Below, in pieces: positions 16,102-63,544 of a DNA stretch of 64,000 nucleotides. The notes under the pieces are model-generated. The model worked only from the letters and a program-made list of their open reading frames with translations, searched no databases and was not told the origin of the DNA. How positions within the stretch are numbered: the stretch's first letter is position 1; every line of letters starts with the position of its first letter. The position numbers were made by a program, and so were the translations under genes. Source of the stretch: Symbiodinium sp. CCMP2592 (Eukaryota; Sar; Dinophyceae; Suessiales; Symbiodiniaceae); NCBI GenBank assembly GCA_905221615.1, contig CAJNDT010004890.1, forward strand, positions 558,001 through 622,000. The letters run 5' to 3'.

Positions 16102-16125
16102 CTATCTGGCCTTCACGCGAAGAAC
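16102..16125 (-). CDS. RBM25: Candidate last exon of the RBM25-like gene
   Basis: Acceptor GGCCAG|GTT, then VLRVKAR and a TAG stop, in phase with WRMLIFE. Known RBM25 proteins end a few basic residues after this motif. Other downstream acceptors cannot be excluded. Confidence 0.4.
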   Translation of the reverse strand, partial: VLRVKAR

Positions 16126-19100
16126 CTGGCCGATTCGGTATTCTGGCATCGTAGAGTGCTGGGTTTTGGAATGAACCTTGGTGTGAATTTGTGTCGGGGT
16201 TTGGGCCGTTGGGGCACATGTCAAGCCCCAAACGCTGGAGCATAACTTAGGGTAGTTCCCGGGTGCGGGGTATTGAAGAATCAAGCCCCAAACTCGAACT
16301 CAAAATCTTAAATGACAAAGCGACCTACACAAGCATCAAGTCCACGATTGAAAGCTCAGTCCTAAATCCTCGGATTACAGCATGAGGTCAACACCAAACC
16401 CTGAAAGCAATCAAATGTCGAATATAACATTCGAACCTAAACTAGTGTAGGGGCCTCAATAATCAGAAGAGGGTTTTGGCGGTCTCCTTAATGCAATTAC
16501 AGTATTAGTCACAAAATACATCCAAAATGTACCAAACTCCGGAGCGCACTTCAAAGAGGCCCCCTGCACTCTGCACGCTGTGTAGTTCCGAATCTTGGGG
16601 CCTTGATAATTAGAATGGGGTTTGAGGATGTTCAAGACTATAGACACAATAAGGAACCACCACAACAGTATAGTATTGGTTGGTAATTATTTGGGCCCCT
16701 ATTTTAAATGAAAGCACCCTGTCCTGGCAAGAGTAAGACTCTTGCAAGAACCCTTGCGAAAACCATCCCCAAACCCTAAACCCTAAACTCCGAAACCGTC
16801 CACAAATAGTTGCACCGCCAGTGCTTCCAAAAGCCCATGATGCAGGGCCGAGCCTCAAAAATGAGCATTCGCCACCTCGGAACGCGATCGGTTATGAACA
16901 TGAGATCCGTGCATAAACTCTGAAGCAGAATTAGATTCTATATTTGTAAGCTTGACGGCTTCCTATTTCACGGAGCCAAGCCACAAAACCGCTGCTCCTC
17001 AAAGTGTGCTAACCTTCCGATTAGGCAACCCTTACCCAGAGGGTCCATGTATATGCACTATGTTGGGCACTTATCACTGGGGTTTCAAGTGGGGTAACTA
17101 TAGCTATAACCCATATTAGGGGACCTGCAACCCTAGTTATAACTACCCATGAACCTCCAAGTACTATTATGGAATTGCGTACCAAAAGCCCATCTCTATT
17201 ATGTCTTCGGGGACCTATTTTCACAATGGCAGTGTATTTGGACCTTCTGGGTTGCACAGCCTTTAACTTTCTGGTTCTTAGTAGGGAATGGGGGAGTGGA
17301 TTATGGAGACTATTATTGGGGATGAAAATGGGGCTACAATAGGGATCCATCCCTCATTCCCTACGAAGAACCGGACAGCTCTAAATCCTGTAAGCTCCTT
17401 TCGTCTTAAAATCCATCCCAGAACCCGGGACCCCCAACGCTACACCCCAAAGCACTAGACCCGGAACTCCTACCGTAAACCCCTAAACACCTACACCCTA
17501 AACTCTAAGCCGAAACCCCCCAAAACCCTAAACCGACCCCTAGACCCCAAACCCCTAAACCCCAAACCCCCAAGCCCAAAATCGTGAAAGCTGAAAACCA
17601 CCCGAAGCCAGGAGCCAGCAGCTTCTCGACACCCAAACCTTCTGTGGAAGATACCCTTAGAAGCGGCCCCCACCCTGTAATAGTGACTATAAGGATTATC
17701 TTAGGGCCCTATTATATTCCTATTATACCACTATTACAGGGTGGGGGCCCCTTCTATTATATACCCTTAAAATGTAGTTCATCATGGGGCAGTTCTCTAA
17801 GTCTGGGACCCTTTTCTGGTCGCCAAAAACGGTAAGTCACCCTCTAATATGGTTTAGGATTTAGGGTTTAGGGTTTAGAATATAGTTACTCCTTAATTTA
17901 AGGCTATATCTTGCTATTACAGAGATGGGTCCCGAATATGAATTATTCAAGGTCTATTCCTTCTGGGAACACATGGATTCCCAAAGGACCGAGATGCTCA
18001 AGCCTCGGGTTTAGGGTGTATAGGGGTTTGTGGGCTTGGCGTTTAACAGGATGTCGGGTTTACAATCTAGGGCTAGGGGTTTTAAGGTCTTAAGTATCTA
18101 TAGGGATTATAGGGTTTAGGGTTTTCGGGAGTTGAGGGCTTCGGAGTTAAATAGGGCGTAGGGCTGAAATAAAGGATTTGAGGGCTTGTAAGGCTTAGGG
18201 CTTTGGGGTTCAGCGGTTTAGGGCTTCGGGGTTAAGGCCGTCTAAGATTGTTTTGTTGAGGGCTTGTAGTGTTTAGGACTGTAGGAGAGGTTTAGAGCTT
18301 CGGAGCTGATACGGTTGAGGTTTTTTTAGGCTTTGAGGGTTTATAGGGTTCGGGGTTTTAGGGCTTTGGGTCTCGGGGGCTTAGAATTTAGGGTTTGGCG
18401 GTTCAGGGTTAATGGCCTGGGGTTTCGTAAAGTCTAGGGCTTCAGGGTTTTAGGGTTCAAGGCTTAGGTGGCCTCAATAATTGCGATAGGGCTGTGGGTA
18501 TAGTAGACCATGATTATGACAAGGAGCCCTGAGGAATAGCATGTGGGAAATTACTCGGGCTTCTATGTCGCGTGGCCTTATTTCAGAACCCCAACCTCTG
18601 AGACACTAAATCTTGAAACTTGAATCCTACTTGGAGTTTCACGGGTAGTTACAAGGGATTCGGGTCAGGTGTGTAAGGGTTCGGGGTTTAGGGGTTTGGT
18701 AGAGCGTTATCAGCGGAGCCATAAGTCCCCTAAGAACGGCTATAGCACGGCTTGACATTGACGAGCGTGATGGCTGCACATGCGATGCGTGACAGCCAGA
18801 ACCACATCTTGGGGCCAGTCCATGCATGCAGGACATGTCTTGGGTCTCAGCATCCAACAGGTGTTTTCGTTGCGTGAGATGTCAACCAAGTCGTCCGCAT
18901 GCTGGAACTCCGAGGTTCCCCTCTTCACCACAACTTGTCCGAAAACCACAAGCTCTGCCCGTCCTGCTAACTGTACAAATAACATCATGCAGTGCGGCAG
19001 TGGTCCATGTGTGTGGCCCTTCTCTGAGCAACAAAGAAGAGCGGGTTGAAACACCTGCATGGCCACCGACATTTTTGCCCTTTGTAAAGATCAGGCTGTC

Positions 19101-22100
19101 CTTGCGCTCACGGAAAGTGTTGCCTTGCAATGCAACAAGTGTTTGAGGAAGTGCTCCGTACCGCCCGTAAGTGCTTTCAATCATGAGCTATGGGTATCTC
19201 CTCCTACTTATACCCTCACCTGTAGCTACGCACGAAACTCCAAGTACATCCTCAGCCAGTTAGCCAGGCTCCTCCAGTTACTACGACCAGCTACTTGTCT
19301 CTTGTTGCTCGGTTTTCCTTGGAAACACCCAGAACAAATGAACACATGGGCTGTGTTAAATACTGATGGTAGAACCTGGGACCCCCCGAACCCCTAAACC
19401 TTAAAGCCAAAGCACCTAAACCCTGAAACCTAAGACCTAAGACCCCCCAAACCCTCACACCGCTAGACCCTAAAACCAAAGCCCCTAAAGCCCCAGACCC
19501 CTAAACCCTAAAACCAAAGCCCCTAAACCCTGAACCCTAAATCCGAGGCCTCTAAACCCTCGAACCCCAAATCGTCTGCTGTGAACCCGACATCTTCAGC
19601 GTGAAGTTCTCCGCTTCTTCGTCCAAAAACCCTTCCAGCCTTGGTCCAACATCTAGACCTAAGAGTAACCTAGGAATAACAAGAGTGCCCTTTTTGGTTT
19701 TCAAGTGGCTTAAAAGGGAACGTGAACCCTAACAGTATTCTAGGTCCTAGACAGTGGCTTACCAGGAGTGCTGAATTTTTTGTCTAAGCTCCTAAATGCT
19801 TTAGGGTCTAGGGCTTAGGGTTTAGCGGTTTAGGGGTTTACGGACCTTAGGGTCTTGGGAGGGGGCTCGGCAGCTTCGCGCTTCCGGGGTGTAGGGTGTG
19901 TGGCTTGAGGCAGTTGTTTGGAGCTCCGTTGCTTACGGTTCACCTTAACTGCATAACTCTAAAAAACCTGTCTCTCTCAAGACTTGTATGAAAAGACTGA
20001 CAATAAGTCACACCTGCAAGGTAGGTTATTTGTGGCCTAGGTAGGGTTGAAGGGGGCACATTGGGCTGGGGGGAAAGGACTCGGCGGGTCTTCGGGTTCA
20101 GGGCACTTCCTCGTCCTGTGTAGCTATAAGGCCTTTAAAGCCTTCTAAAAGGGCTCTGCCCCTAAACCCTAAACCCTATGACTGTAAGGAGTACGATGGT
20201 TAGACCGGAGCCGGGGCAATTGCACTTGGGTTTGCTCGTTTTGGTAGGGTCGTACATACGGGGTTTGTTGCCAAAAGGCGTACAGAGATAGAGATGAAGA
20301 TTTAGAAAATAGAAATTAGAGTTCGGGGATAGAAATTAGAGTTCGGGGTGTTCAATAGTTCAATCCGTGGAGTTGTGTTGCGTTGGTCTTTTCAACCTTT
20401 TTGGAGCAAGGTTTGGACATGCAGTATTTTTCAACAGACATTATAGCTCGAAAGAATCTGATCTGTGAGTAACCTTGCGGAACCCTGCTGAACCAGGGTG
20501 AACGAACCATGCAGCAGCAGAGAATTGCGAGTGAAGCTGTAAGAAACCAGGTGCCAAGTCATGAGTAGTTGAAACGGCCTGTGTTTCTTCAATGAGACAT
20601 TCTGCGAAGGACCAGATGTTCAGCACAAGGAGATAAATTTCGGCATCGGGTTTAGTTCTGAAGATTGGTGTAGCGACATCATGCTGTGAACTTGAGATTC
20701 GGTTAACTGGGGCTACAACTCTGCGAGAATCGTGTCCGGCTTGGTGTGAGCACTCACCTTCGCCGGGGCAGTTGAGTTCTTTTATGGTGATAAGCCCTCA
20801 ACCCTAAACCCCAAACCCTAAACCTTAAACCCTAACCCCAAAGCCCTGCACCCTAAAGGCCCTAAGCCGTACAACTACGGGTTTAAGGTATTTGGGTGGT
20901 TGTCAAAATTATGATTCCTTATTGGGTACCCTAAATATTAGGTGCCGTACTATATTCTGGACCCAAAGAGGGACCACAATTTTGACAACCACCCATTTAC
21001 GTCTACCATGTCTGGCAGAAGCGAAGTGTAAGCCTGGCATTGCAGGCGAACTCCAGGGACTTCCGACCCTATCCTCAGGGTCCATGTACTCATATAGGAT
21101 ACCTGGACCCTAAGGAACCTACCTTTTAGGGTTCTCTAGTATGTTTTCTTTATATAAGTCCTTAAAAAGGTAGGTTACTTGGGGTTAAGGTATACATTGG
21201 CCTTAAAGTAGTCCCTATATAGATACTTTGGGGCTCATGCATCTCTATATGGGTACATGGACCCTTAGGGCCAGCGACTTGGTGGATCATACTTGGAGGA
21301 TCATAGGACTTAGTAACTAATTAGATTAAAAGTACATTTACTATGCGTTTAACCCCATTAGGCATGTATAGCCATACTTACTAAGTCCCGTGATCCTCCA
21401 AGTAGGAGGCAGTAAGTTAGGTTACAAGTAGCTAAAACGTTGTCAGACGTATTTATAATATTGTAATTACGTTATCTGTTACCCCGATTGCTAAATCCCA
21501 CGATCCCTTAAGCAATCCCTCGAGTCTCATCTCAAAACTCCACGTTCCCATTTCACGGGTCTTCCGTAAGTCCCATAGAGGCCTTGTCTCTTGAGGCTTT
21601 CCATGTTTTGTCAGAGACTAAGCACCGCTTTCGTCCTTTGTTTCGGAATTTGAAAGACGAAGCTTGGGCATTCTCTAGGTTTTGTCACGACCGCCAATCC
21701 TCATCGGACCAAACACCACCTTCCTCAAGGTTCATCCTCCTCCTCATCATCAGCCCAGCTTGGCGGTGGGTAAGGAGGTGTCGCGGGAGCTGCAATGCCA
21801 TCGGAACCCATCACCATCTCTAAACCCTAAACCCTAAACCCCTAAACCCCTAAACCCTAAACCCTAAACCCCTAAACCCCTAAACCCCTAAACCCTAAAC
21901 CTTAAACCCTAAACCCTGCGGGAACATCAGGAGTCTCGGGAGCTGCTATGCCGTGAATCTCCGGTTCCTTTTAAAGGGCTCCGAAACAGGGAATCTATAG
22001 GGTTCCTTAAAGGGTCTATAGGGTTCCTTTAAGGGATCTATAGGGCCGGAGTCTTGGGCTCTGCGGAAGCCGTGAAGCTCCGTGGTCTCGGCACGTTTGT

Positions 22101-24751
22101 CACTGTCTCTGGCAAGCGTGGCACTGTCCACAAAGAAGGCAGTGAATCTGTGGGACGGTTGATGATAGAAATCCTGCATTACCCATTATAAGGAATATAC
22201 CATAATTCCCATAGTTTGGGGTCCTTACGGTAATGCAGGATTTATATCATCAACAGGAGCTCTGGCATGATGGTCTCGGCGCCTTTGTCGCTGTCTCTGG
22301 CAAGGGCTGATGGATGGGCAGCTCTGCACCTTGAACCCGGAACCCTACACCTCTCCTCTGAAGACCAAACCCTGATGGTCCAAAGCACGCGGGAATTGGA
22401 CCTTGGGTTCAGAGTAGTAGTTTTGTAGGTTAAGTACTCTTGAGCAAAGGGACCCTCAGTGAAACAAATAGCCTGGACGGCTACAGCCACAAAAATGGAC
22501 ACCAGCTTAAGCCGATTCCGCTACGCTGAAGCACCCGAACCTCTGAACCCGAAACCTGAGCGCACCATCCTTGCAAGGAGCCCTTAAGGCTTAAGGGAAA
22601 CCTCAAGGAACCCCATAAACCGGAACCCGACGACTCAGTCCGAAGTCTCAAACCTGCACTCCCCGACCTTAACCCTTTTCACCTTCGAGCCTACCTTAAC
22701 CCCAATTCACTTACCTTTTTAAGTACTTTTAAACGGAACTCAGAGTAAGGAACCCTCATACTTTACTCTTGAAGCCAAGGGCCCTAACCCCAAACCCTAA
22801 CCCCATACCGACACCGGAGGCCTCAAAACACTAAAACCACTAAACTAAACCCTAAACCCTAAATCCCTGCACCTGCCCTAATCCCTAAACCCTAGAACCC
22901 CTTCAGCCCTTCAAGGAAGCTTTATAGGTACCCTCATAGGAACCCCCCATAGAACCGGCATAGGGTTTAGGGAACCCTACACCCAAATCGCTAAACCGAA
23001 AATCCCTCAACCCTAAACCCTAAACCTCATACCAGTTGGGGAGGACCCCCTGGAGCCTTCTTGAGGATGAACTCGATCATGCCCTGACCCGGGTGTAGGC
23101 TTTGTAGGGTTTAGGGTTTAGGGCTTTGGAGGTTTAGGGTTTGGGGGTAGGGCCTAGGGCTTAGGTTTTTGGGGTTTAGGGGAAAGGGGGCTTCACAGGG
23201 AGGTGGTAAGAGCTCTTAAGAGTGCTTTGTTCAAGCCCTTTTATACTCTATAATGGCTCCCTCAGCTATTTAGATAGGGTTCCAAAGGGGGAAGAACGAA
23301 GGCGAAACAGTCCCCGCGTGCTTGGAGGTTCGTGGGTAGCTGTCAGTGGGGTTAAACGTCGGGCAACTATTCCTACAACTCGCATTGGGGTGCTTAAGCC
23401 TCTACCTATAACCCAAAGGGTCCAAAGTACCTGTATAGTAGAATGTAGGGTTTCCATATTATTAGGAATTACTATTATGACTTGGGGAAATATCCCCCAT
23501 AACATCATACAGTTTGGTCAAATGAAAAACCCAATTTCGTAATAATTGAGTCAGCTATAACTGTAGGACGAAAGCAAGTTGCAAAGTGATCAAAGAGCTG
23601 AACTGTCGCTTCAGCATCGGGAGGTGCATTGAAGACCAAGAACCTGCTGACCGGTGACTCAATGTCCCCGTAAAGAATAAGAAAACCATCATCACTGATG
23701 AGGTTGGTGGACCCGGACACCTCCACTTTGAAACCATTGCTGTAGTCATAGTCCCTGCTCCAAGTAACATCCTCGCCACCAATTCTCTTGGTGGTTTCGT
23801 ATTCAAGGTCAGGCCATTCGCTAATCGTCTCAAACTGGGTTCGTGAAAAACCAATCGGTAACTTAATCCCAATTGCACTGATGGGATCAACTTGAACCAC
23901 AGTGCCGCAAACGCTGGCGGAATAATAAGAAATGTTCGGGAAGAAGACAATTGAAGTGTCAGATTTCAACAGTACCTAGGACTCGATGGGTAAGTACCCC
24001 AAGAACCTCCCTATACTGAACTTAGAACCCTAGCAAAAATTGGTTTTAGAGGGCGTGTCTCCTCAAGTTGGCTACCTTTTCAGTTTCTTCGCTAGACTGT
24101 ATAGACAACTTAACCCCAAACCTGGCCCCAACTCCCTGAACCAAAACCTCTGCACACCCCCAAACCCTTCATAGAATCCTTGTGAAGCGCCTACGAGTAC
24201 AGAATCCCTCTAGAGTCCTTGCAGAATCTTCCCAGGCCTTCCAAAGTCCCTCGATTAAAGAACATACCCTAAATCATGTTCGAAATGAATTCAAATTTTG
24301 GTTCTTAAGTAATTAACGGAATTTGGAAGGTCTGGGTCTAAAGACCCTGTAGAATCCGTTCAGAACCCAGGGCATTCAATCTTCCCGCGCAGCGCCCTTC
24401 ATAGCCTGCTCCTCGTTGCCGAGGAACTCCGTGACCTCCCCACCGATTAGGGTTTGGGGTCTAGGGTTGCGTGGTAAGGCCTTGGCTTTTGGGATTCAAA
24501 TTTCGAGGGCTTGCGATTTTAGGATGCAGTGTATTTTGGGGATTAGGGCTTATGAATGAGGCCTTCTAAATCATTCATTAACCATTTTAAGACCTTGTAT
24601 AACAGGTTCATAAGTTTATAAAAAGGAATGATACCGGACTATAGAGGTCTGTAAGGGTTTAGGCTTAGGGCCTGCTATGTAACATTCATAGAACTCGTCC
24701 TTGATCCAGCCAACCACGCAACCAGACAGACAGACAGACAGACAGACAGAG

Positions 24752-24793
<42 letters not shown>

Positions 24794-27700
24794 AAGACAC
24801 ACAGACAGGCAGACAGGCGGCAGACAGACAGACAAACCGAACGATACAGGAAACACATGCGTACGTTCTTGTGTACGTGCATACGCAAGCATGTGCATGT
24901 ACAAATTTAAACAGTGCGTGTGCCTATTTCGTACTCAGACACACTCGGAAAAAAACAAAAAAAAACACCTTTCTTCGAACAAGCCGCAGTACTGCAAGCG
25001 ATGCAAATCAGGGGAATAGTTGTCCAAGGGAAATCGCGTGCTCAGTCGTGCACAGTTTTGTTCAGCTAGATGCAGAGTTTTGATAAACTGTACGTAATTA
25101 TGGGCCTTAGCCGCGGAGGATAGGATTTAAGCTTGGGGTTCAGGCTTTAGGATGTTGGGGTTTCGGGTGTTCGTGGTTGCTGAGGGTTGCGACGTTGCGC
25201 AAATGATTCGTTGCAGTGTCATCGGAGGGTGACCAAGCTTTTCCGCACGCGGTATGCCAAATGCTGTCAAAGCCCGAGTGTCTGTCTTAAGCTCAATTTG
25301 GGGACATCATTCGTCACATAAGTGGCCCCTCCGTACCTCGCAGAATCCGCACGATGAAAGAACGTTGGGCTTGCTGGGTTTGTTTTGCTCGGAACGCTAA
25401 CCAACACATCCGAAAAGGCAAATGAACATGGCCAAGGCCCCCATACCCCGTCGTTAAGAGGCCTGAATATTAGGACCCCGTTTCTGATCCTTATTAAGGT
25501 GGTGGTGCCGTCGATGGGGAAGGGGTGCTGTTCATGAGGGATCTACGTTGGCTTACGTCCCAAAGCCCGAAGCACTTAAACCAATCTTTGAGGATCAGTT
25601 TCTACATATTCAGGCCCCGATGTTGTTCACCGACGTCTGTCGGTCGAAGAAGCGAATCAAGTGTATTCAGGCGCCTTTATTGATCCTTATCACTAAACCC
25701 CAGCCCCTGAAGCCTCAGCCCCCAGTGCTTTGAGGTTTCTGCAAGTCGCCTTCTTCTTCACCCACGGCCGGAGCTTCTTCTCTATGATGTTGTTGCCCTC
25801 AGGCTTATGGCATAGGCTTCCGAAGTCTCTACAGCCGACATGCACCTGCCAACAAAATGCTAACAAGACCCAAACACAAAAAATCACAACGGTCGTCTAC
25901 ACCGTGAAATATAACGAAAAATGCCCTTAAGCCTGAAGGCCCCAAAATATGGGCATGTTCAGGGTACACAGGCCTTGTAAAGAGCACAAGCTTCTTGTGT
26001 GCTGGTTTCGGGTTTTGGATTCAGCAATCAGGGTTCGTGGTCGCGGGAATGGCCACAGTGTGGACGCCGATCGATGTCACCAAATCCAAGTCTCCTACAA
26101 CATCAGACATGCTTGGAGGTTCATGGGTAATTAGTTATAAGTGGGGTTATAAGTCCCTTAATATGGGTTGTAATTATAGTTACCTTACTTATAAGCCTAC
26201 TTATAACTACGCACGAACCTCAGTGCGCTGGGAACTGCGTTCCCACGGTGGACACTGGTCGATGTGTAAACAACCAAGCGATGCGTGACAAAAACACACA
26301 CATGCAGCGTGCAGGGGGTTTTGCATCAGAGTGGCTTTACCATTGTAACCGCAAAAAAGTTTTACGGCTTGTGGCTTTCCCTTCCTTGAAGGTCTGCGCC
26401 GATTTGCTGGTAGTGCCATGTACTCACTGGATCTGCTTTAAATTGTGTCGGAGGCCCTGATCCCTCGTAGGTTTCCGGACGGCATTACGAGCTTGGACGA
26501 TTTATCCGGTCTGCGGACTACACAGTCGAACCAAGTAGACTGCACGAAAGCATCGCCAGCTTCAGCACATCTGCACGAATCTTCCATATTTACTCTAGTC
26601 TCTGTACTCCTGAGACCCTAAACCCAATGTAGACTACTTGGAGGTTCATGGATAGTTATAAGTGGGGTTCTAGACTATAAGTAGCGTAGCTATTTAATTA
26701 CAAGAACAACCCATACTCGGGGACACATAACCCCAGTCATAACTACCCATAGACTAGTGCTGCCTCGGCCTGGCCGAACCCTAGGCTCGGATGCCATTCC
26801 CGGACCAACTACATAACTCCCATATTTTAGGTCCTATTAAGGTAATGCAGGATTTGTATCATCAACCGTATGGTGAATCATCCCTTAGGGCTATAATCAA
26901 CAGCTCTGACGAGACACCAAGCAGCAAAACATCCAGCTGCAGATGGATCGAGGACGAAGGAGGCCGGGCGAGCAAACAGCGAACTGGCGTATCGGAGGCT
27001 TGCCTGCTGACTCAATGCAAGACAACAGCTGGGCCGTCTGCAGTCGCCGGCAGGTTCAGCGGAGCTGCGGGATCGTGACGGACATGTGCCTGCGGTGCGT
27101 ACAAGCAGGCAAGGGCGCCAGGAAAAGTCAGCCCAAGCACCAAGCCGGATATAGTGATAGCCTGCTTTTCCTTCCTCTGTCGCTCTGCAACTGGACGACT
27201 GGTCATCAACTCAGGCCATCCAACCAGCTCAGCCACTCTCCTAACCAAGCCGTACCTTTCTTCTCCGCTTGTATCGGAGTCTGCAGACATTCCGCCAGAG
27301 CGAAGGAAGATTGCAAGCCCATGAGCCAAAATAGCGTGGACCTTGTCGATGGCCGGGAAAACCTCTGCAGCCACCATGCGTGCTATCCCTGCGGCTCCAC
27401 TCCAGTGGGGCCATCGAATCAAGAACACCCAAAGATTCTCAATGTCCTACCTGCACCTCAACAACCCCTGTGTGTGTTCGCGCTAATGGTATTTCTTGAA
27501 GTACTACCTCTAAAGGATACGTCCTATCTGCAGGAAGCCCCAAACCCTAAACCCCACAATCAACCCTGCTGGCAGGGAACGTGCACTGCGTCCCAGTCGA
27601 TGTCGAAGGCAAACGCCCGAGCCTTGTCGGTGGGTACCTGTTGAGGGTTTCTAGGGCAAACTCGGGGTTAGTGCAAACTCGGGGTTGCGGGTTTTAGGGT

Positions 27701-39127: not shown

Positions 39128-39165
<38 letters not shown>

Positions 39166-51100: not shown

Positions 51101-54100
51101 CCCTTTCTTCGGTCTTCGCCCTGTCTTTTTCCTTTTCCTTCTCTTTCTCCTTCTCCTTGTCCTGGTGATTGCCATCAGCCAGTGGTCTTGTTCTCACTAG
51201 CAGCACTAGCACTGTCACTGGCACCTACCACGAGCACTACTTGGACTCCCAAGGGACTTAGTAAGTCGGTGATGAGTAGGGTTATAGTTGGGGTAGCTCC
51301 GTTTAGGGTACTTATAACTGTACGTACAACCTACATACTAGGTCGGTTACTAGCACTACTAGCACTACCGCTAGAAATAGCACTAGCACTAGCATTGGCA
51401 GTGGCACTCGCGGTCACAGTGGAAGTCTCGGTCGCAGTCGCGGTCAAGCAGCAAGGGCAGTTCCAGTACCAGCAAGAGCAGCAATAGTAATACTGAGAGT
51501 AGTAATGATAGGTTTTTAGGCTTGGGTCACGGGGTTTTGCTCGCAAAGGGGATGTGCTTCCTGTTAAGCTTTACTCCACAACACGACACATTAGCAACGG
51601 TAATTTTTCTGATGCCATGTGACCGGAAACTCAATCGATAATTGCGATTGGGCCTTGCACGGCGTGTCAGCCCAATGCATGTCATTGATGTATGGAGACC
51701 TTTTAATTCGAACCGGGTATGAAACGGTTATAAATTGTTAAGTTGTAATACTACATGGTCAATTTATACTGAAACCCTGCTGCAATCATTAGTTGGCTAT
51801 GACTGTGGCGTCTATAGTTGCCGAAACTTTGCAGCCTGCTGTTGGAGGTAATGAGCCTGATCGAAGGAATGCACCCATGAGTTTCAGAACAAAACTCGGT
51901 TGGCTAGATCGCATAGACCTTAAACCAAGAGCCCAAAGACAGAAACCGTGAACCTCTAAACCCTAAACCCGGATTATGTCTACCAAACCAGAAATCCTGC
52001 AACCCTCAATCGTCATCAAATCCCTGACAGAAGCCTTCTTCTCAGCTGCTGCCTCTTTGTCTTTCTTCTCCTGTCCGAACGCGACTGACCCGACCCCAAA
52101 CTGCTAGTCTGACACTCCGAAACCCTTAACCTTGGGTACATAGGGCTACGATTACGGGCCAGATATATCCATATTATGAATATAACCCAACTGGTACTGA
52201 GAGGGCAGTACCCAACCATAACCCTACAAGTGCCCTGCACCCCCCAAACCGGCTCCAAATCTTTCTCACCTGAACTACAAATGAAATAAACCCAAACGCG
52301 AAATCCACAACCCAAATCAAACCACCTTAAACACCGAAGTCTCCACTAAATGATGAAACCTGACCACCCGGAGTTCTCAACATGATCCATCACCACTGTG
52401 AGGGGGAAGAGTTGCCCTGTCTCATTTCTCATTGGAATCTCGTCGCTCGACGCGGTCAATCCTCTGTGTATCTATAAGCACGAATAGCAACGAACAAACG
52501 AAGTACGACTTGCATTAACAACGGGATTAAGCAAACCACAACAACATTTATGATAGCAAGGAAAAGAAGAACGCTAAAGAAAACAACTCCTTGTCCCCAC
52601 ACAGGAGCTCTGACACGATGGAGCAGGCTCGGGTCTGAAAGTGCTTTAAACCATGAGCAGGGAGCAACACAGGACTAGAATCAAAGGGGAAAAGGAGGGA
52701 CCCTTAATGGGGACCCCTACCCTATAATGGGCTTTTTAATGGGTATATAAGAGCTATATTAAGGGATATACCTAGAAGTCCTTATTAAGGGTCCCTCCTT
52801 TTACCCTTGGATTCAAACAATCCCCTGGGATGTAAGGACTCATGTATTAAGGCTTTTGGGCCCAAAGACCATACTATATAACGCTGTTGGGCTATTTTGA
52901 TCCCTAGGGAATAGGGCTTGTGGCTTTTGGGGTTGAGGGATTAGAACTGCGGGGCTTATGGCTTCTAGGGTTCAAGGTTCAGAGGTTCACGGTAGCCTTT
53001 GGCGGCTATTCGCAAATACTCCGGCCCCTGCAGTAGCCCAACATCAGGGAAATCAAAAGGCTTGTTGCCTTTAACCTCGGCAACAGATCCAACAACTTAG
53101 AAAGCTGGACTCAGAAACTCGACGCCGAATCTTTGAAAATTGAACTCACCAAGACTGTAACGGCTACCTGTAAAGCGCTCCTTTACATGGAGATATAAGT
53201 CCCCGGGTATGGGTTATGCTTATACTGACCCTTCTTATAACGCCCACGTATAACTACCAATGAACCTCCATGTAGGGCCAGAAACCGCAGAAGCCCCCAG
53301 CCCACAAGAGCCAGAATTCTGAATTCCCCAGCATTGAACCCACCAAGCCTTACCCAGACAGCCCAATACCCCTTAATTAAGGAATATAGCTGAAATCAGA
53401 ATATGACGCCCCTTATAATTCAAGATATATTGCTTAATTAAGGGGAATAGGGCAATACCCCAAACCCTGACAGCCGCAACCCTCACGAGCTGAACCGCTC
53501 TAGCTTCGAGGCTTCAGCTGCCTTTTCCAGAGCTTCTTTGGCAGCTTTCTCTTCCTCCTCCAGGACTGATTAGGTAGGGTTCCCAGCGACTCCAATACCC
53601 CTTAATTAAGGAATATACCTCAAATTATAGCAGGATTCCATATATGATTTAAGGACTATTCCTTAATTAAGGGATATTGGAGTCTCTGGGTTTGAAGAGT
53701 TGAGACTAGAAGCTGAAGGCGTAGGGGGGAGGGAACCCTGAGGCTTCTTCACACCCTAGTTGCTGAGTTCATAAGCCCCAAAACAGTGTACACTTTCAGG
53801 TTTATAATGGGTACTATTATCCCAAAAAAGTGTAAAGTGTATCCAGTCAGCTACTGAGACACCCTAAACCTCGAAGTAGATCCTAAACCCCTCAACAAAA
53901 TACAGAAGCCCCGACCCCTAAACCCCAATCCTCTAACACCACAGAACCCTAAAACCGAAACCTAGAACGATAGTGAGCATCGCTGCCAACAGTTCTGCCC
54001 GGCCCTGCATACTTTCAAAACCGAGTAATGTAGGGGCCTTCAAAGTTAGAATAGGGTTTCGGGAACCTTTATACTAGCATTGGTAGTTATTAAGGCCCCT

Positions 54101-57100
54101 ATATTACCCGTATTGAGAAGTTACTAACAGTGTTGCTGTTGCTGTTACAAGTGCGGATACTGCTGCAACTATGACTGTTCGCAGAATGTGTGCCATTCTT
54201 GGCATTGTTCCTTCTGTCTGTAACTAGGGTATAGGGCCCAACAAGCACATAAGCAAAACAAGTATAGGGATGTCCCATATAGACCCCTTTATAATGAAGC
54301 CCAATAAGGTAGGGATATCCCCATAAAGTGTTTATGCCTATGTTCCTTTTGGGTCCCTAAGTAATTGCCTTTCCGAAGAAATGGCAGATCTTCCTGTTCG
54401 CATGCATACTAGTACTTCGGCTGATGACAAAAATCCTGCATTACCCATAACGAGGAATATATCACAATTCCCATAGTCTAGGGTCATTAAGGCCATGCAG
54501 GGTTTATATCATCAACCGTAGCTCGACTGCGGTCTGAATTAGACGCTTTCAGATGTGCGGTATGCAAGTGTAAGATCTCCCTAAACCCTAAACCCTGACC
54601 GTGTAAGATCTTGCTATCCCGGAACCCAAGGCAGGTACCTGGGGCCAGAGTACTTCGACTTAGCCAGGACTTTAGGGTTTATGGTTCACGATGTAGGTTC
54701 TGTCCCCCAGACCGAAACCCCGAATCCTGCAATGACTTCGAGTTTAAGTTTAGGGTTCAGTGTATGCTCCCATCAGTGCATCAAGTTGAATACCGGCAAG
54801 AAAAGCATCAACTCGGAAATCAGCTTCCAGATGAAGCCCTCTTGGAGTTTAAGGTTTGGGGTTTAGAGAACCCTGAACCCTTAGAGTTTAAGCCTTGGGG
54901 TTTAGGGAGCACTCAAGATGAACCTCCTTGGTTTTCTGGTCTTCCCCATCCTTGACCTGAGCGATGTGCGGATCTGGAGTCTAGGGTCCTCTACCCAAAG
55001 GCCCCAAAGTAGTTCCTTTTGGGAGTTCGTATATCGAATCCTATAAGGTAATCCCCAAAAAGGAACTACTATGGGGCCTCTGGGTAATGTGTTCTTTCCA
55101 TCCATCTATGTATGAGGGTACTATTAGGGTTTTAAGGTCTAGGGTCTAGGATTTCGGGATTGGGGAGTTCAAGGTTTCAGGCTCTGGGGTGCAGATAAAG
55201 ATTCAGCGTTTGCCGAGCACGCGAGCTGCCCGTGACTTCGATTCTCAAACCCTGAAAGACTCAAAGGGTCCTATGTACTGATATGGGGGGATACTTCCCT
55301 AAGTTAAGTCATAATTATCATAATTTTAATTCCTAATATGGAAACCCTACCTTTTTGCTATATCGGTACCTAGGACCCTTTGAAATGTGCCGTATGGCAT
55401 AAGGTTTCACAGAACTCTTCGATCGGAAACCCTCAAACCCTAAACCCCAAACCCCTAAGCCCTACTATAGGGGCCTTAATAATTCGAAAAGGGTTTTGGG
55501 GCCCATTATAAAGGATCCCTTTCATGGGACCTCTATTCTAGTTATTAAGGCCCCCCACACTGTATAGTAGAAGCCCAAAAGTTGGAAACCCAATAGCCTC
55601 AATCCTTAAGAGTCATGTATAGGGAATCCCAGCACTATTTGGCCTTAATCCGGTTTCCAACTTTATGGGGTTTGCTATAAGCCCTAAAGCTCTAACCCCC
55701 CCCCCCCCCCCCCCGAAACCGCTGAACCGGAAAGCCCAAACCGCTCCAAGCCACACATGGCAGCTACTCCAGCAGTGTTGGGGGCTCTAGCTTTAGAAGG
55801 TTTACTTAAACCCCCCCAAAAGTTAGTACGATAATGGCCCAACCCTAAGCCCTAAACCCTAAACCCCAAGCCCTAAACCCTAAGCCCTAAGGCCCTAAGC
55901 CCTATACCCTATAAAAGGCTATCACTCTACGTACAATGTTGCTTGGGTTTCGACCCCTGCACCTCCAACACCAAGCCCCAAACGTGCAACCACGATCCCT
56001 TCAGCCTCTAATATGGGGTTCCTCTATAAGGGTCCTATATTATATGAGTTACTATGGGGGGTACTATAAGGGTACTATCAATTAGAATAAGGTTGTGGGG
56101 TATATTGTACCATAGTTATAATACGAAAACCCCAAAGTAGTATAGCTAATTATTGAGGCCACTATGCTGCATATCGGAACCTTACCAAAGTACCGAAGGT
56201 CCCAGAGACTCCAATATCCCTTAATTAAGGAATATAGCTTAAATTATGATAGGATCCCTTATACGATTTAAGGTATACTCCTTAATTAAGGGGTATTGGA
56301 GTCTCTGGGGTCACTACTAGCCCTAGCTGCGGCCAACCCCATGCCAAAACCACTACAAAACCATCCATACACAGCCATAAAACCTTGCGGAAAGCTTGCA
56401 GCTGTCATCTGACTTCAAAGGTACAACCGGAACCTCCCTACCTAAACCCCCGCAAGGTAGGTACAGTACTGGCCCAATACCCATCAAAGGCTACTATTCT
56501 ACATACTTTTGGGGTCCAGGTATGGGTCTACAGTCTGCGAAAATCAACCGACGATTGGGCTACTTGGATCTCCATGCGCCGACCAAACCAAAAAAGGAAC
56601 TACAAGGGAGACTAGAGGTAAAAACAAATGAAACAACCCTGAACTCTAACGCCCAGATCCCTGAACCCTCGGACTTGACCCCCAAAGCCACAACCGCAGA
56701 TGTGTGCCCCTGATTCACTGATACGCAACAAAAAGGGGCCTTATGTTAGAACAGGTAAACTGGTAACATTAAATCTGAAATAATCCAAAGGACTGCCATT
56801 GGTAATTATTCCGAGCTGTATAGAACCCTTGTAGAACCCCTTATAGCAAACACAAGTGCCCTTATGTAATCCTAAATCCTCAACCCTACGCCCTAAACCG
56901 CACCCCAAACCCTGAACCCTTATAGTACGCTTATATAGGGCCCCTTAAAAAGCACATAAGCAAGAGATAGGATAGGGATATCTCATATAAACCCCCTTAT
57001 AATGAAGCCCAATAAGGCATTTGGGTCCCTAATTATAGAGCCCGTTAGAGAAACGAGAGGGCCTCGGGAAAGTCTTTGTTCTTCACGGCCAGCAGCTTTT

Positions 57101-60100
57101 CGATCTCTTTTTCAACGGCCTGGCGTTTTGGGATGAAGGAACATTCATCGGGTCCCTATCCCTAACCCTCAGGGTCCAAGTACCTAATTATCATATATTC
57201 TCAAGAATAGTAACCTACATAACTACTATCCTAAAACCGAGTACCTAATTGTGGGGTCCTTAGGACCCTTGGGGTAAGCCCTACCTATAGTCTCCATTGT
57301 AGTTCCTTTTCTTGGTTGAACCTACAATGGAGACTATAGGTAAGATTCCAAGTAAGGCAGCAATTCCTACTTCGGGGTGCCAGTCTACAAGTAGTACCTA
57401 CTCTGGGCTACTTGGAGTCTTCGGGTATAGGACATTCATGTATGGGTCGAAGCGGAGAGCCTACAAAGAAGTAGGCGATGGTCAATGGAAGCAAGGTACT
57501 AAGGCCACTACATACAACCTTAAAGCTCTCATTGTGGAACCCTTGTAGACATTTATAAGGAACCCGTATAGCACACACCATAGAATTCAAAAGGAACATC
57601 GCCTGCTTGAGAGCCGGCGTTCTCAAGGATAGTTTGGAAGCTTAGGGTTTACACGTTCAGGGGCTTAAGGTTCAGGCGCAGGTGCTCACACCAATCACTG
57701 CTTACGCTGCCCCGACGATGTGTATTCCAACCTGTACCATCTACCGTGTACTCTTTTAACTTTTGGGGTACCTCCAGAGGTAGGCATCAAGAATATCAAT
57801 CGATGGCATCTCGTGCGCTGGCCAGCTAGCTCACCAAGCCGACAACAGCTTGATACCGTATGGGCCTAAGTGATTACCTACACTATTTTGGGGGTTGCTT
57901 AGTATAAGTATAGTATAATGGGCCCCCAAACCCTATTCTAATGATTAAGGCCCCATACTACTCGATCGCATTCTCGTTGGCGAATACAGAGCCCACCGGT
58001 ACTCTCTTGCAAGCAATCTCGCACGTCTGTTCCACTGAACCCAGGGACTCCAAAACCCCTTAATTAAGGAATATACCTTAAATCATATTAGGAGCCCTAA
58101 TAAGATTTAAGGTATATTGCTTAATTACGGGGTTTTGGAGGCTCTGGGAAGCTCTCGGCCTCGCCAGTCTAGGACAAACTTCGTGCTCAACCGCTTCGGC
58201 GGCTTGCCGTCCGGCAGTGGCTCAGTGCTACGGTTGGTGATATAAATCCTGCATTACCCATAATAAGGAATATACCATAATTACCATAGTTTAGGGTCCT
58301 TAAGGTAATGCAGGATTTATATCAGCAACCGTAAATCACTGCAACATAACACAAAAAAAGGTCATGAAACATGCAACTCCCGTCTGTTCAAAGTTAGTGT
58401 GGTCATGCTGGAGATGCAGCTGTCCTCGGGCCCCCGGGAAAAAATCCGTCCGCCAATGGGACCTTCGCCAGCACCGCCGCAAAGAAGTCTCGTCTGCTGT
58501 AGGTTAAAAAGGGGTTACCTCCGCCATCTGTACTCATGGTATTGACATGTTTAATTCTTCACTGCGAGATAGCGAAGCCCTTTGAACCCCAGACCCTCCC
58601 CCAACAAAAACAAAAAAACTAAAGCCGTTAACCTGAAGGCACCGAAACTACACAGGAAGAATCTAGCGGGGATGGTGCCTTCACCCTCTACACTATTTGA
58701 ATAATAGTTCTGTAAATCAGGGTCCTTTTTGGGGTCGTTATAAGAGTGCCGCATTATTTAGAGGACCCAAAATGATACCGACCCTCATTTGGAGAATTAT
58801 CCATATACCGCATCTCGAAGAGAACATACTGCAGCGGCCAAACCTCGCAACTACACGACAACCTATTCTGCAGAGTCTGCATCAGAACCACACTCAAAAG
58901 CTCTCAGCAGCCCTACAATCCGGGATCCCTGAAACCCAGCAAAAGCTACACTATAACATATCTTAACTCTAATAAACTCCCTAAAAGAAACACTGCTACT
59001 AACACACCCCTTCACTGAACGTAAAACACCTAACGCCTAAAACTATGACCCGTAAGAGTTCCCAGTGCCTCACTGTCCTTGCGCAACTCCGCCGTGAGCT
59101 GCTCCTCTGACAGCTCCTCATGAGGCCATCATTGGGCCACTGAAACTGAACCCTAAACCCCAAACCGAAACTGAACCCTAAACCCCAAACCGTAAGCCCT
59201 AAAGCCTAAACCCCTCAACCCTCTGCCCAAATCCGTAAACCCAAAGCCCTGAACCCTAAACCCTAAGCCCAAAACCGTAAGCCCTAAAGCCTAAAGTCTA
59301 AACCCAAAGCCCAAAACCCTAAGCCCAAAGCCGTAAACCCTAAACCCCAAAGCCCCAGACCCCGGAAGCTCAGGGTTCTGCACAGGTTCCTCAAAAAGGA
59401 TGCCTACTCAGAGGCCCAGCGGGTTTCGTAAGTAGGCTTAGGGTTTAGGATTTACAGTTGAGGGCTTAGGGCAAGTAGAGTTATAAGAGCTTGCTGGTCT
59501 TGCAGTCGGAAGCCAAGAACAGGCACACCGCCGCTGCACGCCCCACGCCGCAGTAAAATGGCAGCTTGCAGTCGATATCCACAGGTTCGCAAGCATTTAT
59601 CACCCTACTCCCTTCGGGTCCATGTACCCAAATAGCATATACTTTGACCTTAAAGTACTCCCTATACTTGGAGGGTCGGGGGACTTAGTAAGTAGGTAGT
59701 AAGTAGACTTATAAGTACCTTAAAAGGGACCCTAATTGGGGTTATGGTACTTATAAGTCCCTAAAATTACCAGTTACTAAGTGGGCCCAGAGTATATATT
59801 ACTTGGGTACATGGACCCTTAGGGCCTTGATTGATTTATTGGAAGACTTCTTCTTCTTCTGCGACTCCTGCCGACTCCTCGACTTCCCCATGGTTCCAGG
59901 CCACTTAAGTTTCGAGTCTGATGGGCTCTCGGAAGGACTCGGGAATACGGCGAAGGGAGTTCGAAACCCGCTGCAGCGTTTAGGGCTTAGGGGCTGAAGC
60001 TTTGGATTTATAGATTTACTGTAAGGTTTTGGGCTGAGGGCTTAGGTGTAGGGCAATAATTCAGACTGAACCATCTTCCCACCTTGGTTCTAGTACCCAT

Positions 60101-63100
60101 TCGCCAATGTACCTAGGTTGTACATACTTTGGCCTGAAGGTACTCGCTGAGGTGACCCAACCCCACAACACCAAACCTTACATCATAGCCCAGGCCCCAA
60201 ACCTTGAACCCTAATAAATCAAGCCCTATCAACCATGTAATGCTGTAACATGCCAACGCAAAAAGCAAGATTCTACCATTTGTGGTGTGTTAGGATCATG
60301 AAAGCTGTAGGTATTCAACGGGCTCCAGATTTCTTGCCTGCGGGCTGATTGTGTTTACATTGGGTCGGCCCCTGTTTCAATTACATTATTGAGGGGTTTA
60401 GGGGCTTGACGGTTTCGGTGTAGGGTTTAGAGCTTAGGGAATTCATAGAGCCCTTCTTACAACGATTAAGACCACATTGCGACCTAATATAGGGGCCTTA
60501 ATGGTTTGAATAGGTTTTGGGGCCCACTATACCATAATTATAGTAAGAAACCCCAGGTAATTAACTATTAAGGCCCCCATACTAAATCCTTCTGATAGCC
60601 GTTTATCAGACGCCTTTAAATGGAACCCTACTTGGAGGGGCAGGGGACTTAGTAAGTAGGTTATAAGTAGGGTTATAATTGGGGTAACTCCATTTAGGGT
60701 ACTTATAACTCTACTTATAACCTACTTACTAAGTCCCCTGCCCCTCCAAGTATTAAAGATCCCTTATAGACCCCTTCAAGGATCCCTTTATACTGCATCC
60801 CCGCGGCCTGGTCCTTCTTGTCTTTGTCCTGCGCAGGAGAAGGCGCAGAGCCGACTTCTTCGCTACTTCACAGGATTTAGGAGTTTCCGAAAACTAGGGG
60901 TACCTTAGGATTCCTTTAAAGGGGTACTATAAGGGTACTATAAGGGTTCTATAATAAAGGGTTTAGGGTTCAGAGTTTCCGAAAATTAGTGGTACCTTGT
61001 TTTGGGCGACTATATCCATATGATAAGCACTTGCAAAGTTCTAGCAAATCATTGCAAGTTGTGTAGCAAGTCGTTCTATGTGACTGTAAACCATTACATG
61101 TCGTGGTAACATGTTATAACCACATGCATGGGTTAAGAACTTTTGGTGCTACTTATCATTCGGTTATTCACCCATCCTATCTTTTACAAAAGGTACATTG
61201 GGACCAAAGTGTCTACTATTTGGGTACATGGACCCTTAGGGCTCGGATCATGGGCTCAGGTTAAGCGTGGGCTGAATGTCTGGAACAAGTCGTAAGGCCC
61301 TAGGACACATCCCGAGCCTCCTCCTTGAGCTTCTTGAGGAGTTCATCTTTTCGGCTTGCCTGTGGCTACGGAGCGGACGGGCCTTGTTGAGGCATTCAGG
61401 TGCAGGGTCAGAGTATGATGTGGTTTTGCACCTAAAACCCTAAACGCCCTAACCGCTACCCCGAAAAATGCATCGCATGCAGCCGAGGCTACTTTCCAGG
61501 AATCGATCGTCTGCTTGGCCTTCTCCTGCAACATGGGAAGTTCTCTAAATTAGGCTCCCTTTGCAGGTCCCCAATATGGTACGGCACCCTTATACTCTTT
61601 ATAAATGTATAACAACGACCCCAAGAGTGACTTCAATCTAGAGAACTAGCCATACACTTCAGTGGTTGGTTCCGGGAAGTTTGTGGCTTTGAGGCTTAGG
61701 GCTTCGACTTCTCGGTATTGGGTTTAGTGGTTTAGTGTGTTCATGATGTGGAAGTGGCAGCCCAAGATTGGGTTCAGAGGGTTCGGAGCGGAGTGTGACT
61801 CAACACTAACATGACCTCCAAAAATACCGAACAAAACCGAGACCAAGACTAAGGGCAACGCCACCGCCCAGCAACAACGACAACCACAACCACAGCTAGA
61901 TCGCCCAGGACAAGGACAACGACAAAGACAAGCAACTGCAACTGCAACGACACAATACAAACAGATTATGTTCCTCGCTGCCCACAGCCTCGGTATGAGC
62001 CCTAAACCCTGAAACCCTAAACCTCTAAACGCTGAATCCATAGACCCCTAACCCAGAAGCCCTGAGCCGTAAACCCCAAGGCCCCGGAGCCCTCATCCCG
62101 AAATCCTCTCACGTGCACCCTGTAATACAGTTGTATATCGAACAGAGAATCAGCGCGAACAACACGCCCGAAGCCAAAACAACCACCCAAAAGGGACAAA
62201 ATCCTAGCGCACCAACGCAAAGATCCCAAAACACCTAAACCCTAATCCCTAAACCGCTAAACACTAATCCCTAAACCCCGTAAACACTAACCCCTCCTCC
62301 CTAAGCCTAAACCCCTAAAACCCTAAACCCTCCAACCCCTAAACCCTATAAACCCTCATCCCCGGGAGTCTCCTCGCATTTCACAAGGAGCTTCTTATCG
62401 CAGAGCTGCTTCTCATGGAGGAACTCCAGAGCACGCCAGACACCCTGTGGCTCCTGGTTTGAGGCTTAGGGATCTAGGGTTTAAGGCTTAGGGCTCTAGG
62501 GTGTAAGGTTTAGGGATGTAAAGGGTCGCTTTGAAGGGCTCTGCAAGAATTTGCAAGGGTTTACGGCTTAGGGGTTAAGGTATAGGGCGTTGGGTTTTAG
62601 GATTTAGGGTTTATTCAGGTTTGGGTTTTAAAGCTTAGGGTGTAGGGCTCTAACATTCTAGGGTTCAGGGCTTAAGGCTAACATTCTTTTCAACATGCTA
62701 AGATACAGTCGTTGCTCGTAATTATAACTATAACGATTATGATTATTAGTGTGACGCTTCTCCTGGTGTAGATTTGTTTTGTGTTCCCTGCGTAGTGTTT
62801 TTTAGGGGGAGTAGGTGGTGTGGTTGTATAGGGCTCTAAGAGGTTTAGGGGTTTCGGAGTCCGGGACAGGGTTTTGGAGGCTTTGAGTCAGTTTAGGGCT
62901 CAGGGCTGGCATTGGACTCGAATCTGCCTATAGTCTCCATTGTAGTTCCTTTTTCTGGTTTAACCAAGTATATATGAAGGATCCTATAAGGTAACCCCAA
63001 AAAGGAACTACAATGGAGACTATAGGTGGATCTGCAGTTTAAAATGGAACGCTTGGGGATTTGGGGGTTCATGGTGTCTGGATGTGTTTTTTTGGTGTTC

Positions 63101-63544: not shown

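Follow-up and report, generated by a model that had tools for sequence, protein, structure and literature searches.

We identified, on the minus strand of the window (the whole 64,000-nt stretch of DNA analyzed here, contig C4874:558001-622000 of a 1.10-Gb assembly with 5,383 contigs), most of a gene predicted from its sequence to be the RBM25 orthologue of a Symbiodiniaceae-like dinoflagellate, which is divided into at least 44 very small exons spanning 53.5 kb. Read in the sense direction, its introns start with TTTAGGG-like and end with CCCTAAA-like telomere repeats, an oriented arrangement that is new here and is seen by statistics only. As an explanation of the whole, we favor, with slightly better than even confidence, an RBM25 orthologue of at least 44 tiny exons in which these repeats are putative splicing enhancers acting independently of each other. 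We know of no answer to the question of how dinoflagellates recognize exons only about 45 nt long when the introns around them measure 1 kb, start with GC/GA donors and lack an evident polypyrimidine tract. The gene provides a nearly complete 44-exon test case of this problem, with a countable gap in the acceptor signal and a concrete candidate for what fills it; a repeat orientation that flips at exons may help the cell to find them.

The exons were located with a purpose-written spliced aligner, whose first rules required GT, GC or GA donors and AG|G acceptors. Human RBM25 domain queries (each controlled by 12 shuffled queries) scored 189 for the RRM on the minus strand against at most 146 for the shuffles and 153 on the plus strand, and 204 for the PWI against at most 157 and 159, respectively; both scores exceed all shuffles, so the match is not due to chance. 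Parts of these alignments gave way to that of a dinoflagellate relative, P0002: for the RRM query, the wrong exons at 65874 and 65128 as well as a stray exon far downstream, and for the PWI query, stray exons at both ends. The human coil query scored 177, inside its shuffled range of 165-197, and human coil and linker segments compared with the window, which likewise stayed in the shuffled range, were dropped; the coil exons are fixed by dinoflagellate relatives only. Of 164 candidates searched with the C-terminal 105 residues of a draft translation (436 aa), 43 were relatives at E <= 1e-3, and 24 of these (counted by eye) carry RRM and PWI on contigs below 3 kb, a size fitting cDNA and unlike the 53-kb gene. 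P0002 is a 658-aa relative whose public contig is 2,234 nt long and comprises 8 member sequences. It aligned end to end in 44 exons over the whole 53.5 kb, with 651 of 658 residues identical and no gaps. Because 2,234 nt is too short for a genomic copy of the gene, we read this contig, whose record is not labelled RNA, as a transcript, either from the species of the window or from a sister species. Alignment of P0003 or of P0001, which are more distant, reproduced 37 of the 44 exons without any change in each case.

The joined translation matches the Pfam families RRM_1 (E 4.1e-8, residues 80-149) and PWI (E 8.3e-15, residues 588-650), both above the curated cut-offs, and between them residues 166-551 form a 386-residue region with 63.5% K+E+R+D, as expected of the charged, RE/RD-rich part of RBM25. 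The best PDB match of the C-terminal region is 3v53, RNA-binding protein 25 (4.3e-27 over 96 residues), followed by a Ser/Arg-related nuclear matrix protein (4.9e-7). Taken by itself, the RRM resembles numerous RRM proteins, with RBM25 absent among the 60 PDB matches listed, and thus does not pick out RBM25. In a tree of 30 rows, built from 29 of the 43 relatives and the window's protein (relatives below 480 aa and P0021 were left out, and human or yeast proteins were not included), the window's protein groups with P0002 at full support, and the next to join is P0003, which is annotated as RBM25 of Symbiodinium natans. The RRM-coil-PWI protein resembling RBM25 that the first-pass annotation had proposed, with a profile search for PWI and RRM_1 as its check, is thus borne out in its identity and in the conservation of the joined protein. 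By homology, the product is probably a U1-associated splicing factor with an N-terminal RRM, the 386-residue charged region and a C-terminal PWI: the accessible sections of one study describe U1 snRNP association of the homologues and an effect on 5' splice-site choice together with Luc7 and Prp40 homologues, and name Snu71, a yeast U1 snRNP protein, as the homologue of human RBM25 (PMC5648754). Among papers outside subscription, our search found none joining RBM25 with dinoflagellates, and PWI is absent from the accessible main text of a 2026 review of dinoflagellate RNA-binding proteins (PMC12787238). The host genome contains 429 exact copies (217 + 212) of the dinoflagellate spliced leader and none of the reversed control, which marks it as that of a dinoflagellate.

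The window holds exons 7 to 44 of this gene, listed below in the order of transcription; exons were placed by the P0002 alignment alone unless another basis is given.

62373..62453, minus, exon 7 of 44, first in the window (EPQGVWRALEFLHEKQLCDKKLLVKCE), last third of the RRM; P0002 alignment and Pfam RRM_1
61493..61525, minus, exon 8, directly after the RRM
61318..61359, minus, exon 9, coil
60808..60828, minus, exon 10, coil, 21 nt
59069..59116, minus, exon 11, coil
57063..57119, minus, exon 12, coil
54924..54956, minus, exon 13, coil, with 54927 as alternative 3' end; P0002 and relaxed alignments
53522..53554, minus, exon 14, coil, with 53557 as alternative 5' end; P0002 and relaxed alignments
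52035..52070, minus, exon 15, coil
51102..51161, minus, exon 16, coil
50439..50486, minus, exon 17, coil
49537..49587, minus, exon 18, coil
48920..48964, minus, exon 19, coil
48381..48419, minus, exon 20, coil
47458..47501, minus, exon 21, coil
46329..46358, minus, exon 22, coil
44852..44900, minus, exon 23, coil
43451..43471, minus, exon 24, coil, 21 nt
42585..42653, minus, exon 25, coil
41427..41501, minus, exon 26, coil
40306..40334, minus, exon 27, coil
39011..39068, minus, exon 28, coil
37799..37822, minus, exon 29, coil, 24 nt
35503..35544, minus, exon 30, coil
34004..34036, minus, exon 31
33207..33227, minus, exon 32, 21 nt
32791..32829, minus, exon 33
31223..31259, minus, exon 34
29305..29377, minus, exon 35
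28355..28385, minus, exon 36, where the C-terminal region with the PWI begins
27581..27637, minus, exon 37, C-terminal region; P0002 alignment and partly human query
25750..25797, minus, exon 38, PWI (KLRPWVKKK); human and P0002 alignments, Pfam
24406..24435, minus, exon 39, PWI; human and P0002 alignments
23057..23083, minus, exon 40, PWI; human and P0002 alignments
20720..20757, minus, exon 41, PWI; human and P0002 alignments
19592..19639, minus, exon 42, PWI; human and P0002 alignments
16854..16875, minus, exon 43, end of PWI (WRMLIFE); human and P0002 alignments
16102..16125, minus, exon 44, VLRVKAR and stop; P0002 alignment, C-terminus as in P0001-P0005
16126..62372, minus, 37 whole introns, in sense TTTAGGG-like in the first 150 nt and CCCTAAA-like in the last 150 nt; repeat counts

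The 38 exons in the window, from 62453 down to 16102, amount to 1,596 nt (21-81 nt, mean 42.0, median 39), and the 37 introns between them average 1,210 nt. These values agree with the roughly 37 exons, 1.6 kb of coding sequence, mean exon of about 43 nt and introns averaging over 1 kb that had been read from the sequence at first; the upper limit of the exon range given then (18-81 nt) also stands, and the lower one becomes 21 nt. The span assigned at that time, 16102..63544, is correct at 16102 and has no boundary at 63544, with six more exons beyond. The exon preceding 62453-62373 lies outside the window at 64675-64645 and codes for the residues directly before it; residues 1-127 come from six exons at window-equivalent positions 64645-69640 (C4874: 622645-627640), and residues 80-127, about two thirds of the RRM_1 match, are therefore coded beyond the window. 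Searches with the N-termini of P0003, P0001 and P0004 did not find the start codon and the 5' limit of exon 1, the first scoring 83.0 against 66-82.5 for six shuffles and the other two falling within their own shuffled ranges. As far as it was recovered, the whole gene comprises 44 exons with 1,977 nt including the stop (mean 44.9, median 41.5, range 21-109 nt) and 43 introns (mean 1,199, median 1,083, range 133-2,716 nt); 30 of the 42 internal exons are divisible by three, and intron phases 0, 2 and 1 occur 34, 8 and 1 times.

Under the first rules, which imposed both splice-site classes, the donors are GC (27), GT (12) and GA (4) and all 43 acceptors are AG|G. When any donor dinucleotide and any base after the acceptor AG were allowed, with AG itself still required, 42 of the 44 exons were unchanged and one junction slid by 3 nt; the acceptors were again AG|G in 43 of 43 cases, as had been claimed, and the donors GC (27), GT (11) and GA (5), with no others. 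Intron density is 21.8 per kb of coding sequence, and 18.9, 23.3 and 24.7 per kb in the RRM, coil and PWI, respectively. AG|G density found no support as the cause of the shredding: the AGG density of the PWI is half that of the coil at the same intron density. Two other records touch on these junctions. The gene models P0006 and P0007, which come from relatives, apparently enter intron sequence after FE at the C-terminus, and P0007 does so after DFE and EERE as well. This suggests that the relatives have introns at identical positions and that RBM25 is wrongly modelled in public records, a warning for annotation. The intron between exons 39 and 40 contains a 156-aa open frame (23505-23975, minus strand), which has no Pfam or PDB match at E <= 1.

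Exons of this size are close to usual in the family. Published medians are 51 nt in S. microadriaticum (mean 109 nt, 21.8 exons per gene), 53 nt in B. minutum (mean 99 nt, 20.96 exons per gene) and 81 nt in F. kawagutii (mean 256 nt, 4.07 exons per gene) (PMC7789003, Table 1); the accessible parts of other reports give 17.2 exons per gene with a mean of 120.4 nt for Cladocopium goreaui (PMC9412976), 15.7 with a mean of 106 for S. natans (PMC10666404, Table 2), and more than 200 introns in some genes of S. minutum (PMC4083563). The mean exon of RBM25 is less than half of the published means because it lacks long exons, and its intron density is about 2-2.7 times the roughly 8-10 introns per kb that we computed as the family average from published tables as far as accessible. 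Within the same genome, the PRP8 gene (judged on the N-terminal part of P0046, all of P0044 and the C-terminal part of P0148, with the doubtful rest left out) has one 2.7-kb exon, 32 of 37 exons of 18-115 nt, and short introns (n = 35, median 172 nt). Many kinase domains lie whole in one open frame (137 matches, drawn from the best 131 of 1,390 candidates scored best first, which biases the sample to long exons). RBM25 lies at the shredded end of this broad range of exon structures.

Several observations accompanied this comparison. By eye, many donors of PRP8 (L017-L019, C3902:86001-116000) resemble G(C/A)NNCYTGG, which is possibly an intronic 5' consensus of short introns; the RBM25 donors do not. 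Kinase-like frames of equal length with two TGA and two TAA codons occur on C2112, C5191, C1746 and C3190, with a similar one on C86, and are perhaps a dispersed defective repeat family. Contig C5051, on which several chaperonin and kinase matches each occupy a single long frame, may be bacterial.

It is improbable, in our judgment, that the shredding is maintained as a form of autoregulation, to make the output of RBM25 depend on splicing efficiency. In its favor, other splicing factors regulate themselves through poison exons, for example RBM39 (PMC10477243, accessible part), and the intron density of RBM25 is above the family averages. Against this, two relatives have median exons of only 51-53 nt across their genes (PMC7789003), and the introns are spread over all three regions of the protein at the densities given above. 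Small median exons and genes with over 200 introns in relatives imply that many genes need equally exact splicing, and of the first-pass interpretation we retain the tiny-exon RBM25 and not a special dependence on its own splicing.

The conventional splice signals of the gene are weak. Intron positions +3 to +7 each carry at most 0.23 bit, and pyrimidines make up 0.55 of the last 20 nt sampled before acceptors vs 0.51 inside introns, so that no clear polypyrimidine tract is visible. The only strong signal, AG|G, has 1,426 AGG copies in the span for 43 acceptors, so the spliceosome must use more; 1,064 decoy exons lie within the introns, and the gap amounts to about 5 bits of information per acceptor. 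Exons appear to avoid the acceptor motif: away from junctions AGG occurs 55 times, vs 65.3 +/- 2.9 expected and with none of 2,000 synonymous shuffles as low, it is the most depleted of the 64 trinucleotides in RBM25 exons, and the third base of K/E/Q codons is G in 42 of the 71 followed by G vs 92 of the 110 others (p 4e-4). The long exon of PRP8 gave no significant AGG avoidance (z -0.75; K/E/Q p 0.08), and, judged on one gene each, the effect is suggestive only.

A candidate for the additional signal surfaced in an unprompted k-mer comparison, in which 6-mers of the telomere repeat stood out before acceptors. In a ranking of 6-mers that occur at least 8 times in the 41 introns of at least 420 nt, the seven 6-mers of the TTTAGGG repeat are the top seven enriched after donors, and their seven CCCTAAA complements are the top seven before acceptors. 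On the sense strand, the G-type repeat (TTTAGGG) occupies 15-17% of the first 150 nt of introns and the C-type (CCCTAAA) 1-5%, the last 150 nt hold 14-18% C-type and 2-4% G-type, and the exons are nearly free of both (0.4% and 0). Within 150 nt of donors there are 979 G-type bases (mean 383 and maximum 771 in 5,000 rotations), and within 150 nt of acceptors 969 C-type bases (mean 388, maximum 733), values that 0 of the 5,000 rotations reached in either case. For the 37 introns in the window, the counts are 817 G-type bases at donors vs 187 at acceptors, and 725 C-type bases at acceptors vs 138 at donors. The skew does not hang on a few introns, since after removal of the 10 strongest only 1 (G) and 0 (C) of 2,000 rotations reach the counts; with the 15 strongest removed it weakens, to 17 and 1. 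Part of it persists with the motifs masked, and the repeats thus lie in wider G/T-rich and C-rich flanks. Median distances to the nearest element are 39 nt for donors and 43.5 nt for acceptors. Both motifs together occur 286 times in the window vs 17-31 times in five order-1 random sequences, and 144 times in the 50 kb past its right end. The accessible parts of the literature on telomere-like intron repeats outside subscription papers contain no description of such a bracket that we found.

Considering single introns, 32 of 43 have a G element and 31 a C element within 150 nt, so that 11 lack the former and 12 the latter. Both are present in 23 introns and the opposite arrangement in 4; the number with both does not lie beyond every rotation (mean 12.4, maximum 24) and is no larger than the 23.1 expected from independence (Fisher p 1.0).

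This independence bears on a possible but doubtful origin of the bracket as a functionless relic, in which the repeats would be the decayed ends of inserted introners or of DNA transposons with inverted ends. Inverted ends would always place the G-type first and the C-type last on the sense strand, in either orientation of insertion, and introners are known in dinoflagellates (PMC11453091, PMC10666404, accessible parts). In 31 of the 43 introns AG|G flanks both ends, resembling a short target duplication, although its share of NN|G sites is only 12.7% (p 5e-19); as AG could strengthen the donor too, the excess is no proof of insertion at AGG. Local inverted pairs with arms of at least 25 nt occur in at least 19 of the 37 in-window introns. 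The published introner criterion (Farhat/Dougan) asks for an inverted repeat, 8-20 nt long and no more than 30 nt from each intron end, together with a direct repeat of 3-5 nt. We found such an inverted repeat in 2 of 43 introns, which is chance level (4.7% of mismatched end pairs); direct repeats of at least 3 nt in 34 of 43 are expected from AG|G at both ends. Besides the independence of the two elements, the repeat density also argues against a relic, being level across about 150 nt and not confined to the intron ends. As a separate observation, many of the inverted pairs, among the 40 of 56 listed, are self-complementary over about 100-125 nt (36226-36338, 28466-28580, 17658-17756), and these intronic elements are MITE-like.

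The independence also speaks against pairing, in which the G-rich start and the C-rich end of an intron would hybridize in the pre-mRNA, loop out the intron and join the splice sites. Complementary, correctly oriented repeats are available in 23 of 43 introns, and accessible parts of the literature propose pairing for Amoebophrya introners and describe it for euglenid nonconventional introns. In 41 introns, the duplexes predicted between the two ends of one intron average -66.1 kcal/mol. Mismatched ends (-69.3), pairs of 5' ends (-69.1) and pairs bridging an exon (-72.6) bind at least as strongly, inner stretches (-64.0) almost as strongly, and exact inverted repeats are no commoner than in mismatched pairs; we regard this mechanism as improbable.

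Independent elements fit best among the mechanisms, a decayed insertion relic being possible. The introns are of the spliceosomal type, with GC/GT/GA donors, AG|G acceptors and mostly phase 0, and the tiny exons fit the intron-rich architecture of the family. The G-type and C-type repeats may act separately as intronic splicing enhancers. G-runs strengthen weak 5' splice sites in animals, and UUUAGGG downstream of the donors could do the same here; CCCUAAA upstream of the acceptors could supply a branch-point-like CUAA as well as a C-rich tract replacing the absent polypyrimidine tract, so that each exon would be defined by a CCCUAAA-exon-UUUAGGG bracket. The distances of the elements match the usual ones of G-run enhancers and branch points. 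It is plausible, though unproven, that RBM25 itself helps to recognize such sites, given the 5' splice-site role of its homologues.

A bracket of this kind predicts coding-like DNA between a C-run and the next G-run on either strand of other regions. With a codon model trained on RBM25 and PRP8, whose background overlaps the tested flanks, C-to-G gaps scored higher than G-to-C gaps downstream (p 0.0125) and upstream (p 0.0015) of RBM25 and in 60 kb of contig C668 (p 0.039), and no effect was found in the PRP8 region (p 0.44); three of the four outside regions thus favor the bracket (combined p 1.8e-4), with region-level p-values that are modest. In the RBM25 span itself the score gave p 0.029, and an exon lies in 21 of 83 C-to-G gaps vs 3 of 80 G-to-C gaps. 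A version based on GC content gave p 0.12 downstream, 0.001 upstream, 0.097 for C668 and 0.26 for PRP8 (combined 0.001), being significant alone in one of the four, and 0.13 for the RBM25 span. In C668, scores above 8 were no commoner in C-to-G gaps (6% vs 9%), and no open frame was recognized by eye among the 40 listed.

PRP8 and a chaperonin gene (C4898), both with short introns in the same genome, contain few telomere-like repeats, so the bracket is not needed for splicing in general; it seems tied to long introns, with RBM25 as the one long-intron gene on which the exon-by-exon basis stands. The sole match of a genome-wide PWI family search, L001 (G000:C1779:382586-382669), is not cleanly bracketed. 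This locus is a gene other than RBM25, of SRRM1 type by eye; the PWI of RBM25 itself was missed in that search, presumably because its exons are too small for exon-wise searching. It is possible, though less likely than not, that degenerate telomere repeats form a genome-wide exon code in intron-rich dinoflagellate genomes whose splice sites carry almost no information, with CCCUAAA before and UUUAGGG after each tiny exon of long-intron genes. The splicing machinery would read this code as a substitute for a polypyrimidine tract and for the U1-pairing bases at the 5' splice site.

The order of RRM, charged region and PWI is the same in RBM25 and in the window's protein, but the human coil is not alignable to the window above chance, and the C-terminus VLRVKAR, common to the window's protein and P0001-P0005, differs from the human end. 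The gene shares GC/GT/GA donors, AG|G acceptors, small exons and many introns with Symbiodiniaceae genes, but has about 22 introns per kb of coding sequence compared with about 8-10, and repeats oriented to the splice sites, which the accessible literature on Symbiodiniaceae introns does not mention. Euglenid nonconventional introns likewise have noncanonical borders and possible end complementarity (PMC4770533, PMC6221363, accessible parts), but those of RBM25 have AG|G acceptors and no excess of pairing. The introners of Amoebophrya and Prorocentrum are, like the RBM25 introns, dinoflagellate introns with repeats at their ends (PMC7789003, PMC10666404, accessible parts). Introners carry terminal inverted repeats, of which the RBM25 introns have no excess within 30 nt, and, unlike those of introners, the repeats of RBM25 are telomere-like and extend over 150-200 nt.
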